A stretch of DNA of 59,971 nucleotides, taken from NCBI GenBank assembly GCA_019112635.1, contig DXIX01000003.1:1-59971 (forward strand). The letters run 5' to 3'. Shown here one piece after another: positions 11,986 through 19,132 of this stretch; within the stretch, counting starts at the first letter, position 1; every line of letters begins with the position of its first letter. The DNA comes from Candidatus Blautia intestinigallinarum (GTDB lineage Bacteria; Bacillota; Clostridia; Lachnospirales; Lachnospiraceae). The notes below the pieces were generated by a model. It was not told the DNA's origin. It worked only from the letters and a program-made list of their open reading frames with translations, and made no database searches. The position numbers and the translations under genes are program-made.

Positions 11986-12579
11986 TCATTCCTCCTCTTC
12001 CAATCTTTCGCTTAATTCTTCTCTCGTATCCTTCGCCGCCCGCAGCAACAGATTCAAGGGCTCTGGAATTTGAATGATTCCCGGGAGATCCCGGCAGATT
12101 CCATTCAGATCATTGACAATCTTATTCTGTACTCTCCCTTTTTTCATCTGCATCATTCCCAGGACTGCCGAAGAATAATTCCGGTCGGAAAAGCACAGAT
12201 GCACATACACTCTGGCCACATTCAGACATTCCTGGTACAAAAGCTCCCGTGCCAGATCACTTCTCTCGTAAAATTCATAAAAACCCAGCTTGTTCAATTT
12301 TGCCTGCAGGTTTTTCTGCTCTCTTCGAACCCAGAAGCGCCCAGGCGGATTCTCCGCCAGTGTCTTTAAGTCAATCCAAAGTCTCAGAAACCCGTCTGCC
12401 CTCTCTCTCCTTTGCTCTAAGTCCAGAGAAGAAGAATATCTGCGCTCCCAGATTTCTCTGCGCAATTGATTTCCCTCTCTGTCTTCCCCGTCTTCCAGTG
12501 CTCTCAACAGCAGCTTTCTGCGCTTTGCAGGATTTGTCTCCTCATAGTAACCTTTTAATTTGATCTGTTCTTCTGTCAT
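11986..12579 (-). CDS. Conserved hypothetical protein, DUF6553-like
   Basis: A 197-residue soluble, charged and mostly helical protein (starts MTEEQIKLKGYYEETNPAKR, ends in an acidic EEEE tail). It resembles the Lachnospiraceae family I recall as DUF6553; that name is from memory. No catalytic motif, signal peptide or membrane segment is visible. It begins 10 bp after glf and ends one base before the M16C peptidase, so it belongs to the glf-DUF-M16C-era-recO run. An AGGAG site precedes the ATG. Function unknown. Confidence 0.8.
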   Translation of the reverse strand: MTEEQIKLKGYYEETNPAKRRKLLLRALEDGEDREGNQLRREIWERRYSSSLDLEQRRERADGFLRLWIDLKTLAENPPGRFWVRREQKNLQAKLNKLGFYEFYERSDLARELLYQECLNVARVYVHLCFSDRNYSSAVLGMMQMKKGRVQNKIVNDLNGICRDLPGIIQIPEPLNLLLRAAKDTREELSERLEEEE

Positions 12580-13756: not shown

Positions 13757-13788
13757 GATATTTTCTGAAAAAAATACCCCCACGTCAA

Positions 13789-13811
13789 ACAGGAGGGAAA
13801 ATCCCTCCTGT
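13789..13811 (-). terminator. Hairpin after the DUF5662-like gene
   Basis: ACAGGAGGGA pairs with TCCCTCCTGT across a very small loop, directly after the stop codon. Only TTTG follows at once, with a longer T run about ten bases on, so termination may be incomplete. Confidence 0.6.
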
Positions 13812-13814
13812 GCC

Positions 13815-14354
13815 CTAGTCTGTTCTTTTCAGATATACATTTTTTATATAGCGCAATAACTTTTTCTCTCCGTGATCCGCCAGAATCCGCAGCAGCGCCT
13901 CCAGATCACGCTTGGTCTGAGGATGAATGAACCAGAGATCTTCCTTACTCTTCAGATAATATTTCAGTGGTTCCTGATTCGTGTAGAGGTCTCCCATGTA
14001 GTTTCTGGACGCACTGATTCTGTCCATCACCATCTCCGCCACATATTTCCGGGGCATTTTCGCTCCCATAATCACATGCTCCCCGTCCAGTGAATAATCC
14101 ACCCAGTGTTCATAATGGTGTTTGTTTCTGCCTTTGTGGTGAAGCCACGCCAGAGAGACCCCGGTATCCTCTCTCTCCGCATTGTTCGGACTGCGGTTTC
14201 CCTGATAATATTTACATCCCACCAGAAATTCTGTGGGAGAGTATTTGGACAGATCATGCAGAAGTCCCTGCTTATACAGACCGATGCGAAAACAATACTG
14301 CATAACCAAAATCTTATGTCTCGTAATCGTCTTAAAATGCAACCATGGATGCAT
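13815..14354 (-). CDS. Conserved hypothetical protein, DUF5662-like
   Basis: A 179-residue protein starting MHPWLHFKTITRHKILVMQY. Conserved-looking polar clusters HDLSKYSPTEF (about 33-43) and LHHKGRNKHHYEHWVDY (about 71-87) are rich in His and Asp and suggest an HD-like metal site. I recall this pattern from DUF5662, but no activity is established. It starts 15 bp after the GH13-like gene and closes the clc-exoA-GH13-DUF5662 run. No signal peptide or membrane segment is visible. Confidence 0.75.
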   Translation of the reverse strand: MHPWLHFKTITRHKILVMQYCFRIGLYKQGLLHDLSKYSPTEFLVGCKYYQGNRSPNNAEREDTGVSLAWLHHKGRNKHHYEHWVDYSLDGEHVIMGAKMPRKYVAEMVMDRISASRNYMGDLYTNQEPLKYYLKSKEDLWFIHPQTKRDLEALLRILADHGEKKLLRYIKNVYLKRTD

Positions 14355-14369
14355 AATGCCATCTGCCTC

Positions 14370-16232
14370 CTATTTCCCAAGCAATACCAGAATTCTTCTT
14401 GGTTTTACCTCGAAGGTTCTTCTCTTTTTGAGCAAAACCTCCTCTCCTTCCGGCAAAAATCCGCTCCCCTCGGTGTCTGAGGTGTCCGCCGCCAGATACC
14501 AGTTCACATCTTTCGGCACATTGGGCAGCGCAAACTCCTGTGATTCCCAGTGAAAATTATAAGCCACATAGAGGAATTTCGCCGGCTCCTTATCAACATA
14601 TGCGCCGCAGTACATAATTCCCACACTTCTGCAGGTATTTTCCATATTGCAGTACCAGGCTCTCTGTCCGTGAAAAGAGATATCCGGGAATCCGCAGGAA
14701 AGGTAATCATTTCCCTGGAATTTCTCCTTGCAGTGCAATATGGGATGACGCCTGCGAAATGCAAGAGCTTCTTTCACAAACTGATAGAGCTTCTCATTTT
14801 TTCTGAATGCTCCCCAGTCCACCCAGCCGGTGGGATTATCCTGACAGTAAGCATTGTTATTTCCGTCCTGGGAATTTCCAAACTCATCCCCTCCATAGAT
14901 CATAGGCGTTCCCTGGGAGAGCAAAAGCAGCAGAAACGCATTTTTCAGCTGCTGCATTCGGAGCTGACGAACGGCCTTTCTCCTGGTAGGTCCCTCCACT
15001 CCGCAGTTCCAGGAATAATTATAACTGCTGCCATCCCGATTATTCTCGCCATTCTCCTCGTTATGGCGATAATCATAGGAAACCATATCCATCATGGTAA
15101 ATCCATCCTGGCTGGCCATGTAATTGATCACGCCGTGAGTATCCGGATTCTCCCGGATCAGCTGAACTGCCCTGCACATCATGTCCTCATCGCTCTTCAA
15201 CAGCCGGCGCATCACCTGTTCAAATTCAAAATGAGAGATCGCCGCGCTGCGAACCTTCGGCGCACCATCGGGGTAGACCTCATAAGGATTATAACCGGCC
15301 ACAATCACCTTGGTTTTGCGCAGGAGAGGGTCTCTCAACACCAGATCGGTCCAAACACCATCTCCCAGAAGGTGAAAACCATCCACATGATAAGCCTGTT
15401 TCCAGAAATGCAGCACATCCAGCACAGTCATCGGATTGACCATCTTGGAGAAATAAAATTCCATGATGAGATCTATTCCTGCCTCATGCAGCTTTGCCAC
15501 CAGTTCCTGGAATTCCTGTATGGGATTTGAGGAAGCGGCATAGGAAGCTTTCGGCGCAAAGTAATATCCATCTATATATCCCCAGAAGTTCAGACCGCCC
15601 TTGCCCTGGCGCGTGCGTACCGTCTTTCCATTTTCCAGAGCAGCCGGTACCGGAACTTCCCAAAATTCATAGGCCGGCATCAGCTCAATGGTGTTGATTC
15701 CCAGATCTTTCCAATAGGGAATTCTCTCCTGAAGTCCCCGGAAGGTCCCCCGGAATCTCCCTTTCAGCCTGGGACTTTTCGTGTATCCTCTCACATGAAC
15801 CTTATATAAAATCATGTCTTCATAGGGAATACTCTCCCTGTCACTCTCGCTCCATTCTTCTTCCTTGCCATCCCAGAATCCGCATCGTACCTGGTGGACA
15901 TTCAGCGGATCCACCGGTTCGCCGAACTTTCTTCTGCCCACAATCTTTCTGGCGTAGGGATCCTGCACAATCACATCATTAACCTTGTAATTGTACTCAT
16001 AATTTCTCCCGGACAGACGTGGTATAAAGACTGAAACCACCTCTCCCGTCCGGTACTTCTGAGTCAGCAAAATTTCATTCTCCGGCCTGGTCTCTCCTTT
16101 TCGGTACAAAAGCAGAGATACTTGCGCATTCATGGGTGCTTCCACCGCGAAGTTATACCCTCCGTTTCTCTTAGTCACCCCTAATAGTTCAGGCACTCCG
16201 GTTTTTATCTGTCGTTCTTTTCTGTCTTCCAC
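14370..16232 (-). CDS. GlgX-like GH13 protein with degenerate active site
   Basis: About 620 residues with the plan of glycogen debranching enzymes (isoamylase/GlgX, GH13): an N-terminal CBM48-like beta domain (about 20-115), a TIM barrel and a C-terminal beta domain. All four GH13 signature regions are altered. Region I reads LIMEFYFSKM instead of xxDVVYNHT. Region II reads VDGFHLLGD instead of DGFRFDLA, so the nucleophile Asp is absent. Region III reads VIVAGYNPY instead of LIAEPWD, so the acid/base Glu is absent. Region IV keeps Asp in SQDGFT but has lost the His of HDGFT. The scaffold is otherwise well conserved (QGTPMIYGGDEFGNSQDGNNNAY), so this looks like a maintained pseudoenzyme. The GTG at 16232, 10 bases after AAGGAG, fits better than the GTG at 16241. 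Confidence 0.9.
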   Translation of the reverse strand: MEDRKERQIKTGVPELLGVTKRNGGYNFAVEAPMNAQVSLLLYRKGETRPENEILLTQKYRTGEVVSVFIPRLSGRNYEYNYKVNDVIVQDPYARKIVGRRKFGEPVDPLNVHQVRCGFWDGKEEEWSESDRESIPYEDMILYKVHVRGYTKSPRLKGRFRGTFRGLQERIPYWKDLGINTIELMPAYEFWEVPVPAALENGKTVRTRQGKGGLNFWGYIDGYYFAPKASYAASSNPIQEFQELVAKLHEAGIDLIMEFYFSKMVNPMTVLDVLHFWKQAYHVDGFHLLGDGVWTDLVLRDPLLRKTKVIVAGYNPYEVYPDGAPKVRSAAISHFEFEQVMRRLLKSDEDMMCRAVQLIRENPDTHGVINYMASQDGFTMMDMVSYDYRHNEENGENNRDGSSYNYSWNCGVEGPTRRKAVRQLRMQQLKNAFLLLLLSQGTPMIYGGDEFGNSQDGNNNAYCQDNPTGWVDWGAFRKNEKLYQFVKEALAFRRRHPILHCKEKFQGNDYLSCGFPDISFHGQRAWYCNMENTCRSVGIMYCGAYVDKEPAKFLYVAYNFHWESQEFALPNVPKDVNWYLAADTSDTEGSGFLPEGEEVLLKKRRTFEVKPRRILVLLGK

Positions 16233-16250
16233 CTTGTGCACACTCCTTCC

Positions 16251-17006
16251 TTACAGTGAAATATCCAATTCCACCGGGCAGTGATCAGATCCCATAACCT
16301 GGGTATGAATCTTAGCATCCTCAAGCTGGTCTCTCAGCGAACCGGATACCAGAAAATAGTCAATTCTCCATCCCGCATTCTTCTCTCTCGCCCGGAAACG
16401 GTAGGACCACCAGGAATAAATTCCTTCCTGATCCGGATAGAAATAGCGGAATGTATCGATGAATCCGCTCTCCAGAACCTTGGAAAAGCAGGCCCGTTCC
16501 TCGTCGGTGAAGCCGGCATTCTTCCGGTTCGTCTTAGGATTTTTCAAGTCAATCTCTTTGTGAGCCACATTCAGGTCACCGCAGAAGATCACAGGTTTAC
16601 TCTCTTCCAGCTTCTTTAAATAGGCCAGAAAATCCGCCTCCCATTCCATCCGGTAAGACAGTCTGGCCAGTTCGCTCTGGGAATTCGGCGTATATACGGT
16701 GACAAAATAGTAGTTCTCATACTCCAGGGTGATCACCCTGCCCTCCTGATCATGTTTTTCAATGCCAATTCCATAAGTCACCTGCATCGGTTCTTTTTTT
16801 GTAAAAACAGCCGTGCCGGAATAGCCTTTTTTCTGCGCGCCATTCCAGTACTGATAATATCCGGGAAGGTCAAGTTCCACCTGGCCCACCTGGCATTTTG
16901 TCTCCTGAATACAGAAGATATCCGCATCCGTCTCCTTGAAATATTCTTCAAAACCTTTCTTTAAACATGCCCGTATTCCATTCACATTCCAAGATATAAA
17001 TTTCAT
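16251..17006 (-). CDS. exoA: Exodeoxyribonuclease III / AP endonuclease
   Basis: A 251-residue member of the ExoIII/Xth AP-endonuclease family in the endonuclease/exonuclease/phosphatase fold, which cuts DNA 5' to abasic sites. Visible are [19 protein letters not shown] (Asn of the metal site), FCIQETKCQ (metal-binding Glu), FCGDLNVAH (Asp and Asn of the active site) and the terminal GSDHCPVEL (Asp-His pair). The ATG at 17006 overlaps the stop of the ClC gene as ATGA and has GGAG 7 bases upstream. The gene probably depends on the clc promoter. Confidence 0.95.
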
Positions 17007-18580
17007 TCTGTTCTCCTCTCTGATCCCGGATGACACAGCTTCACCATCTCATCGTAGACCTTTCCCTCCCCGCGTGAGGAAGTCATCACCACCAGCATAT
17101 CACTGGGCAAAAGCTTCGTCTCCCCCTTCGGAAGTATTTCTTTTTCTCCCCTCTGAATTGACACAATCAGGCAATCCTTGGGCCAGGCAATCTCACAGAT
17201 CTGCCTGTTCTCAATGGGAGAGCCGTGGCGGATCACAAACTCCATCAGCAGCCGTTCTCCTCCCAACGAATTCTCCTTTTGTCCCCTCTGACTCAGCAGA
17301 TTGTCAAGAAGGCTCTCGTAAATTGGTGCTGATTTCAAAAGCGTAGCCGTCACATAGGCCGCTATAGACACAATGGATAAGGAGAGCATCTGGCTGAGAG
17401 ATCCTGTCATCTCAAAAATCAGAATAATCCCCGTAATCGGCGCCCGCACAATTGCTGTGAAATACCCTGCCATGGCCAAAATAATAAAATTACTCACATA
17501 CTGCTGGGGAATCCCCAAATACTGTACTCCAAGCGACGCAAAAATGGTCCCAATCATCGCTCCCAGAACCAGAAGCGGGAAGAAAATACCGCCCGGAGCG
17601 CCTGAGCCGAAGCTGCACAGAGAAAATGCCAGCTTCAATAAAAATAAAACCACCAGCGTTCCAAGAACCCACTCTCCCTGGGACAATTTCATAACCAGGG
17701 CATGTCCGCTTCCCAACAGCTCGGGAATGGTAAAACCGATCACTCCGGCCATCAGAAACGGAAGAAACAGTCTCGTCGTCTCATTCAGACACGAAATTGA
17801 GCGAAACAACTTCTGTGTCTTCAAAGTCAGACTGTTGTAGCATGCTCCCAGAATTCCCAGTACAATTCCCAGGATCAGTACCATCCAATAGAGATTGGTG
17901 GGAATTTCTCCTGTCAGTTTCAGGTCAAACACCGGATCAAATCCCAGGAATTCCGACGAAATATAATCAGCCGTCACCGAGGCACACATCGCAGACAATA
18001 AAAGAGAGACGGAAAAGCTTTTGTGAACTTCTTCCACGGAAAACATCACTCCAGCCAGAGGAGCATGAAATGCAGCCGACAGACCCGCACTCGCACCGCA
18101 GGTCAATAAAAATTTTTCCTCTGTAATATCCCGTCCCGTAATCCTGGATACACCCTTGCCTGCCATGGCTCCCAGCTGAATGGAGGGGCCTTCCCTTCCC
18201 AGAGAGAGTCCTCCCAGCAGAGAGAGAAAACCGCCGGCAAATTTTGCAAGCAGAACTCTCCACCAGCACTGATCGATCTTCCCTGTCATCTCGCCTTCCA
18301 GCTGCGGAATTCCGCTCCCGGATATCAGTGGCTCCCACCGCAGAAGCCTCCCTACAATCCCGGCCAGAAGGAGCAGAATCAGAAACCATATGGCAATGGT
18401 CACCGGTGATTTCTTCATAAACCGGAGAATCAAAAGCAGCCATTCATCCGCGTATTTCAAAGCTACCCGGTATAACAGCACCACCAGGCCGCTGACAACT
18501 CCCACTGCAATTCCCTCTCCGATCAAGATTACCGGAAGGAATTCTGCCCGTTTTAAAGTCTTGGGTGTATTATTCTTCAA
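17003..18580 (-). CDS. ClC-family chloride transporter with C-terminal RCK_C domain
   Basis: About 525 residues. The ClC core carries the anion-pathway motifs GSGIPQ, GREGPS and GGIFFP. Both glutamates of the proton-coupled type seem present (gating Glu in GREGPS; an internal Glu candidate in [10 protein letters not shown]), so Cl-/H+ antiport is likelier than a channel. The last 80 residues ([20 protein letters not shown] ... [11 protein letters not shown]) look like a TrkA_C/RCK_C regulatory domain. I start at the TTG at 18580, 8 bases after GGAGG; an ATG at 18628 lies upstream of the promoter's expected start site. It leads an operon with exoA, the GH13 pseudoenzyme and the DUF5662-like gene. 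Confidence 0.93.
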
Positions 18581-18610
18581 TTTGACTTCCTCCCCATTCC
18601 TTATGATTTC

Positions 18611-18639
18611 ATTATACGCAAGTCCCATAAAAAAGCCAA
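18611..18639 (-). promoter_or_regulatory. Promoter of the clc operon
   Basis: On the minus strand TTGGCT and TATAAT are 17 bp apart (plus-strand 18634-18639 and 18611-18616). The expected start site near 18604 excludes the upstream ATG as the clc start and supports the TTG at 18580. Confidence 0.7.
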
Positions 18640-18697
18640 GGTAAAATTTTCGAACTTGTTGATTTTGTACTCTTTTTCTGTTAAAGTTAAGAATGTC

Positions 18698-18712
18698 AGA
18701 TTATATCTGATA
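18698..18712. promoter_or_regulatory. Dyad upstream of the DUF1292 gene
   Basis: TCAGATTATATCTGA is a perfect inverted repeat (6-bp arms, 3-bp centre) between the divergent clc and DUF1292 genes, 28 bp before the DUF1292 start. It could be an operator or a small leader hairpin. The DUF1292 promoter itself is not clear. Confidence 0.35.
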
Positions 18713-18739
18713 AATTTCAGACAAAGTGAGGATAAAATT

Positions 18740-19132
18740 ATGAGTGAAGAAAAAAATACAGCAGCCTGCTCCGCAAGCGACTGTGCGTCCTGCTCCTCCT
18801 GTTCTTCCTGCTCTTCCTGTTCTCCTCAGGATGCAGGCGGTTACCACACAGTCTTACTGCCTATGGAAGATGGACGTGAAGTTCCCTGTGCGATTTTGAC
18901 CGTATACAGTATCGAAGAAAATGAATACATTGCCCTGCTTCCCCTGGAGGAAGACGGCAAGAACCACAACGGAGAAGTCTATCTGTACAAATTCTCCCGC
19001 ACAGAGTCAGGAGATCCGATCATGGACAATATCGTTGACGACGAAGAATACACAGCTGCCGCTGAGAAATTCGATGAAATTCTGCAAAGTGCGAGAAAAG
19101 CAGAAATAAATCACGAGCCAATCGAGGACTGA
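18740..19132 (+). CDS. DUF1292-family protein with Cys-rich N-terminus
   Basis: A 130-residue acidic protein. Residues about 35-110 fit the small DUF1292 family common in Firmicutes (HTVLLPMEDGREVPC, NEYIALLPLEEDG, EVYLYKFSRT, DDEEYTAAAEKFDEIL), whose function is not established. The first 28 residues are unusual: seven Cys residues at about positions 9-28, mostly in CxxC spacing, read as serial SSC units. This could bind metal or be redox active. The start at 18740 has GTGAGGAT upstream and gives the Met directly before SEEKN. It is divergent from clc and convergent with fabV. Confidence 0.85.
   Translation: MSEEKNTAACSASDCASCSSCSSCSSCSPQDAGGYHTVLLPMEDGREVPCAILTVYSIEENEYIALLPLEEDGKNHNGEVYLYKFSRTESGDPIMDNIVDDEEYTAAAEKFDEILQSARKAEINHEPIED

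Follow-up and report, generated by a model that had tools for sequence, protein, structure and literature searches.

A predicted non-catalytic GlgX homologue encoded beside a DUF5662 gene in Lachnospiraceae

Why would a relative of a glycogen-debranching enzyme be kept once its cutting site has been lost? This question is raised by a gene, here called pGlgX, in the window, i.e., the whole stretch of 59,971 nucleotides of Candidatus Blautia intestinigallinarum that was analyzed (contig DXIX01000003.1). The gene occupies 14370..16241 on the (-) strand and encodes an apparently catalytically dead GlgX/isoamylase homologue of 623 aa. Its start is GTG 16241 or GTG 16232; the latter, which gives 620 aa and was the start given in the first-pass annotation of this DNA, is better spaced after the GGAAGGAG motif. 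The frame is intact, as had been claimed, and open over 14370-16241, and the proposed membership in the GH13 isoamylase/GlgX family is borne out. TIGR02100 (GlgX) is the top NCBIfam model (E 8e-94), at 315 bits far under its cut-off of 640.9, and the nearest solved structures by sequence include plant isoamylase 1 and archaeal TreX (E ~1e-70 to 1e-69). In Pfam, the CBM48 model and, as a fragment, the alpha-amylase barrel model scored above the cut-offs, and the isoamylase C-terminal models below them. The CBM48-type N-terminal domain spans residues 20-97 (15951..16184 (-); PF02922, 27.5 bits against a cut-off of 22.4), and a CBM48 match at E<=0.01 was obtained for 7 of 42 family members scanned, the window protein counted. 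It should be noted that the same genome (75.5% complete) encodes, on a different contig, a canonical GlgX of 711 aa (all motifs intact, TIGR02100 647 bits), which is 32% identical to pGlgX, as well as a type I pullulanase.

Catalytic residues were read in an alignment of 139 proteins (a few rows are fragments), which included 107 pGlgX and 32 canonical GlgX sequences, sorted by the best BLAST match to either the window protein or the GlgX of its own genome. The 107 sequences comprise 58 from genome searches, the window's own included, and 49 from named loci; the two sets come from separate collections, and some species are possibly present in both. The residue counts cover only the proteins with fetched loci. 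When the window protein is compared with its own-genome GlgX, DVVFNH of region I is replaced by EFYFSK (residues 261-266, 15444..15461 (-)), and GFRFDLA of region II by GFHLLGD, with Leu in the nucleophile position (DGFHLLGDG, residues 287-295, 15357..15383 (-)). Similarly, IAEAWD of region III is replaced by IVAGYN, with Ala in the position of the acid/base Glu (VAGYNPY, residues 314-320, 15282..15302 (-)), and HD of region IV by QD (Q378 and D379, 15105..15110 (-)). The alignment thus agrees with the earlier claim that the nucleophile Asp, the acid/base Glu, the region I motif, including its Asp and His, and the region IV His were lost from this protein; however, the statement that all catalytic residues are lost was overstated, because the protein has kept D379, which belongs to the three catalytic carboxylates.

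The same picture was found in the orthologues. The nucleophile Asp is present in none of the 107 pGlgX (ungapped anchoring), its place being taken by Val, Leu, Met or Ile in 70, whereas both the nucleophile and the acid/base Glu are present in 32/32 canonical GlgX (one row is gapped over region IV); this contrast goes beyond chance. The acid/base Glu is retained in 16/107 pGlgX, and the nucleophile is absent in all 16; the other counts are 0/107 for the region I His, 10/107 for the region II Arg, 28/107 for the region IV His and 53/107 for the region IV Asp. Consequently, the Asp/Glu/Asp triad of GlgX is incomplete in every pGlgX read (n=107). The accessible part of PMC3787081 names eight residues that every active member of the alpha-amylase family conserves. 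Each pGlgX has 0 to 3 of them, and in the window protein only the region IV Asp remains; no intermediates between pGlgX and GlgX were found by this count among the 139 aligned rows. A hidden Asp/Glu pair at shifted positions was considered and rejected, given the region III Glu in 16/107 and the nucleophile-position Asp in 0/107. An acidic residue two positions past the nucleophile site (Asp in 36/107, Glu in 17/107, the window protein among them) is not conserved across the 107, and it possibly has some role. By sequence, the requirements of the GH13 retaining mechanism are lacking in pGlgX, and a non-catalytic protein is supported.

In terms of distribution, pGlgX was found in 36/37 genomes of the genus (E<=1e-20), the sole miss being an 81% complete genome, and, in the window's family, in 232 of the 299 genomes sampled from 298 genera (E<=1e-70), that is, in 231/298 sampled genera, or approximately three quarters. 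The NCBI family label of the named loci was Lachnospiraceae in 38/49, Eubacteriaceae in two and Clostridiaceae in one, and eight had none; on the majority label, the window's family was taken as Lachnospiraceae. In a sample of the order (E<=1e-100), pGlgX was present in 13/15 family genomes versus 0/131 others, and in a sample of the phylum, 3/398 genomes were positive, all three inside the family. Two matches from outside (G601 and G833) carry intact GlgX motifs and are canonical GlgX; among plasmid records, the best 10 of 475 matches are all annotated glgX. Within the genome samples, pGlgX is thus lineage-specific and confined to the window's family. In a quick tree of 41 pGlgX hand-picked from the 107, 32 GlgX and a pullulanase outgroup, pGlgX formed one clade with an SH-aLRT of 99 (no bootstrap; long outgroup branch).

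The neighborhood of the gene is consistent with the operon proposed for it, inasmuch as a run of genes on the (-) strand is present. It is headed by a ClC-type chloride channel (17003..18628 (-), PF00654), followed by exodeoxyribonuclease III (xth, 16251..17036 (-), TIGR00633) directly upstream of pGlgX, then by pGlgX itself and, 15 bp downstream, by a DUF5662 protein of 179 aa (13815..14354 (-), PF18907, E 1.5e-38), whose ribosome-binding motif GGAGG begins within the pGlgX stop codon. A terminator-like hairpin with a T run, found by pattern scan only (13777..13795 (-)), possibly marks the end of the transcription unit; 17 such sites were found in the stretch versus 9.8 expected. XthA lies upstream of pGlgX on the same strand in 39/58 orthologous loci. 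The divergent neighbor of the run, at 18656-19132 (+), is a gene for what we take to be a DUF1292-type protein; it has an N-terminal Cys/Ser stretch (CSASDCASCSSCSSCSSCS), and a relative is found upstream of pGlgX in 17/45 named loci. Elsewhere in the window, a DUF6553 protein (11986-12579 (-)) is encoded between a UDP-galactopyranose mutase and a PreP-type M16C peptidase.

The association with DUF5662 recurs in most of the other loci. Among the 57 genome-search loci with enough sequence, DUF5662 follows pGlgX on the same strand in 53, and in 50 of these the genes are within 41 bp or overlap (first-start-codon coordinates); within the genus this holds for 29/29 assessable loci, while locus L018 leaves its contig. 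For the named loci, DUF5662 is downstream on the same strand in 29/43 and absent within 1.5 kb downstream in 14/43. The distances in 30 named loci with the pair are within 32 bp or overlapping in 21, 99 and 236 bp in two, and 573-784 bp in seven; several of the last contain a gene for a membrane protein, which by our reading is presumably TraX-like. By gene order, pGlgX and DUF5662 thus form a conserved pair. DUF5662 also occurs without its partner: it was found in 246/299 family genomes, including some without pGlgX, and also outside the family within the order, and 20/20 loci fetched from genomes without pGlgX had no pGlgX neighbor. A set of His, Asp and Glu residues is invariant in DUF5662; it includes HD of HDLSK and the motif HHxGRNxHHxE, and from it we read DUF5662 as looking like a metal-dependent hydrolase. 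No other profile and no solved structure matches DUF5662 significantly, and an HD-type domain, considered for it, was not significantly supported by Pfam, PDB or PADLOC. Relatives of DUF5662, up to 59% identical, occur in 9 of 50,697 phage records. Of these records, seven are contigs that come from human faecal samples and carry no annotation, and one is a Moorella phage; a match to PHROG 20637 was found as well.

What the protein could still do is suggested by the parts that stayed. The earlier claim of a preserved GlgX scaffold stands for the domain order (CBM48, barrel and C-terminal domain in the full-length alignment), and is only partly right for the barrel, which is shortened: counterparts of GlgX 285-328, 351-364 and 444-451 are absent in >80% of the 107 pGlgX, so that ~66 cleft residues are missing compared to GlgX. 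The reworked part, residues 256-370 with regions I-III (15132..15476 (-)), is where a domain-B-like stretch and two shorter segments are absent. Over 196 columns conserved in >=93% of GlgX, the retention in pGlgX is mixed for the first 150 GlgX residues (0.52-0.79), 0.77-0.80 for 150-249, 0.19-0.26 for 250-449 (regions I-III) and 0.86-0.95 for 450-699.

We also placed on pGlgX the acarbose contacts of Streptomyces venezuelae GlgX listed in the accessible part of PMC9530166. The placement relied on motifs and offsets, without that sequence itself; a Streptomyces plasmid GlgX bears the same residues at the mapped positions, and the mapped Asn lies 84 residues from the region IV Asp in 31/31 GlgX and 107/107 pGlgX. 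For the Arg212 contact, no position could be mapped. By these contacts, the -1 subsite is mostly gone, the exceptions being Trp222 and Tyr224 (W220 and Y222, 15576..15584 (-)), which are kept in 107/107 and 97/107 (Phe in the other 10). The outer contacts are largely kept: Glu470 corresponds to E399 (15045..15047 (-)), which is Glu in 101/107 pGlgX, and in canonical GlgX this position is Glu in 14/32 and Trp in 18/32. Asn534 and Tyr536 correspond to N463 and Y465 in GNNNAYCQDN (14847..14855 (-)), kept in 107/107 and 89/107 (Trp in the other 18). It should be noted that these contacts lie mostly in the half of the protein where nearly everything stays, so their retention may be structural and supports glucan binding only moderately.

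The cutting site is lost, yet most sampled genera keep pGlgX, usually beside DUF5662; thus, rather than cutting glycogen, the protein probably acts by binding storage sugar or other proteins. Given the pattern of kept residues, the most economical reading would be a protein that binds alpha-glucan and leaves it intact. Our best explanation, which we consider plausible though somewhat short of probable, is that pGlgX is a non-hydrolytic alpha-glucan-binding pseudoenzyme related to GlgX that acts with DUF5662. Its most likely single step, suggested by the retained residues, is glucan binding, which we hold to be slightly on the probable side; the partnership with DUF5662, suggested by gene order alone, is evenly balanced. 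For the explanation as a whole, genome G186 can also be cited, in which pGlgX and a GlgX of intact length belong to one run of genes on the same strand. Against it speak the CBM48 matches in only 7 of 42 members, the Glu in only 14/32 canonical GlgX at the Glu470 position and, for DUF5662, its occurrence in genomes without pGlgX, its absence downstream in 14/43 named loci and the spacing of more than 32 bp in the rest of the 30 named loci with the pair. According to this model, pGlgX would hold alpha-glucan chains (glycogen, maltodextrin) uncut through the groove residues that it has kept beyond the -1 subsite, and it would serve as a glucan-sensing or anchoring partner of DUF5662, its glucan occupancy tuning or localizing DUF5662 or, via DUF5662, glycogen enzymes. 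A role as glycan sensor, scaffold or regulator, as suggested in the first-pass annotation, may be envisaged, and it is narrowed by the kept outer contacts and the conserved DUF5662 neighbor. The more specific picture, an undescribed two-protein Lachnospiraceae module in which a dead debranching enzyme would read the glycogen state and signal to a metal-dependent hydrolase, is speculative and rather doubtful as a whole.

The conserved gene pair would also be expected if pGlgX were a pure protein-protein scaffold or chaperone, in which glucan binding is gone, the retained half is structural, and DUF5662 or another partner is held. The low number of CBM48 matches among the relatives and a catalytic half that is reworked but constrained within the genus point in the same direction; conversely, the outer sugar contact residues are kept in 89-107 of 107. 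Glycogen synthase (GlgA) is present in 228/232 pGlgX genomes, which also speaks against a pure scaffold; however, GlgA is near-universal (289/299 family genomes), so this co-occurrence says little. We regard a pure scaffold as unlikely, although it is the strongest of the alternatives.

A different alternative is suggested by plants. The nearest known precedent for pGlgX is ISA2 of the Chloroplastida, which, as described in the accessible parts of PMC3787081 and PMC12510319, has a GH13_11-type scaffold without the nucleophile, is kept beside an active paralogue and is faster-evolving. Like ISA2, pGlgX has lost the nucleophile family-wide (107/107 read) and is maintained by selection, as seen from its presence in 36/37 genus and 232/299 family genomes and from the within-genus omega. 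According to the same parts of these papers, the Arabidopsis protein has Glu in place of Asp292 and Ile in place of Asp375, and ISA2 enters a complex with ISA1 and carries an additional beta-sandwich at its N-terminus. Many pGlgX are similar in the two substitutions, with Glu at the Asp292 position in 73/107 and Val, Leu, Met or Ile for the nucleophile in 70/107. The window protein has no such beta-sandwich before CBM48, its CBM48 match starting from residue 20. By analogy, pGlgX could be a non-catalytic subunit in a hetero-complex with active GlgX, stabilizing it or altering its specificity.

The co-occurrence data bear directly on such a complex. In the 299 family genomes (canonical GlgX called at E<=1e-120), both genes were found in 92, pGlgX alone in 140, GlgX alone in seven and neither in 60. 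Thus, 92 of 99 GlgX-positive genomes have pGlgX (odds ratio 5.6, p 3e-6, relatedness ignored), and in two genomes (loci L199 and L200), noticed by eye, a glgX of intact length is ~2 kb away from pGlgX; the two genes of L199 stand in one same-strand run, with a gene for an ABC-F-like ATPase between them. Conversely, the active isoamylase is present beside pGlgX in 92/232 genomes, the window's own included, and lacking in 140/232, which means that pGlgX is not an obligate ISA2-like partner of GlgX. Moreover, 11 of 36 pGlgX-bearing genus genomes have no second match at E<=1e-20, including G001, which is single-contig and 99% complete. A standing ISA2-like complex would suit only genomes that have GlgX, and as a general role it is excluded; we consider this alternative improbable. 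Near the canonical glgX (L006:2386-6249), we observed a gene for a 1287-aa, secreted-looking protein with parts that we take to be 5'-nucleotidase-like and papain-like peptidase.

Unlike ISA2, pGlgX is bacterial, has ~66 cleft residues fewer, is paired with DUF5662 and is often without GlgX. In PDB profile scores it is nearer ISA1, TreX and GlgX than ISA2, and from its distribution and these scores (the tree being without ISA2) pGlgX would have arisen independently of plant ISA2. With bacterial GlgX, TreX and ISA1 (GH13_11), it shares the domain order, the N-terminal third and the C-terminal half; it differs from them in having no nucleophile and no region I His, the acid/base Glu in few members, and a TIGR02100 score below the cut-off. 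By description, pGlgX can also be likened to rBAT and 4F2hc, animal membrane glycoproteins that are heavy chains of amino-acid transporters and have GH13-like ectodomains. Among the matches listed in open PubMed Central (mostly titles and abstract starts, subscription papers being outside), no report of a dead bacterial GlgX was found, and open PubMed Central likewise yielded no paper on DUF5662. According to a review (PMC10395257, accessible part), Blautia obeum has two glgX homologues.

As an estimate of selection, omega was calculated by a counting method. The 11 pGlgX pairs, each drawn from within the genus, gave 0.046-0.108, and seven matched GlgX pairs gave 0.016-0.040 (one further GlgX pair was saturated); hence, omega of pGlgX is ~1.8 to 3.4 times that of GlgX in the seven matched pairs. 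These values are rough because several dS are >1.5. The frames are open in nearly all listed relatives, and the view that the gene appears to be selected is upheld; relaxed selection is contradicted by omega well below 1 over the 11 pairs, and within the genus the purifying selection is strong. For residues 256-370, the reworked part, omega was 0.023-0.108 in seven of eight within-genus pairs, with one undefined. Constraint of this kind could also be expected of a neofunctionalized enzyme with a new active site within the reworked cleft, and some new residues are indeed common (Glu261 in 73/107, His290 in 79/107, Gly293 in 81%). However, of the 19 positions that are >=80% conserved in pGlgX yet unlike the GlgX consensus, only Gly293 and Phe340 are within 256-370, and neither is polar, so we rank a new enzyme marginally below the complex with GlgX and likewise improbable.

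The GlgX scaffold is able to bind c-di-GMP in S. venezuelae, with key residues that are conserved among Streptomyces and missing from TreX, a paralogue and E. coli GlgX, according to the accessible part of PMC9530166. A similar receptor role of pGlgX is very unlikely, as the motif ExR(X)6R within the N-terminal 110 residues is found in 4/107 pGlgX and 0/32 GlgX, and the window protein is without it. Finally, a decaying gene or annotation artefact, for which one could cite the longer branches and higher omega of pGlgX compared to GlgX and an in-frame TAA in one family member (G107, C18:26997-28754), can be practically dismissed as a general explanation in view of the low omega, the reworked part included, the open frames and the family-wide retention.

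Thus, a non-hydrolytic, glucan-binding pGlgX acting with DUF5662 remains the reading that we prefer. Present in approximately three quarters of the family genera sampled (231/298), pGlgX is easily mistaken for a debranching enzyme. Why a non-catalytic isoamylase stays selected is not understood, according to plant biologists (PMC12510319, accessible part). pGlgX would be a second, apparently independent non-catalytic isoamylase, in single cells and often without the active enzyme, in which this question of selection on dead isoamylases may be addressed by removal of one gene. The pairing with pGlgX may also provide a functional lead for DUF5662, a strongly conserved protein.
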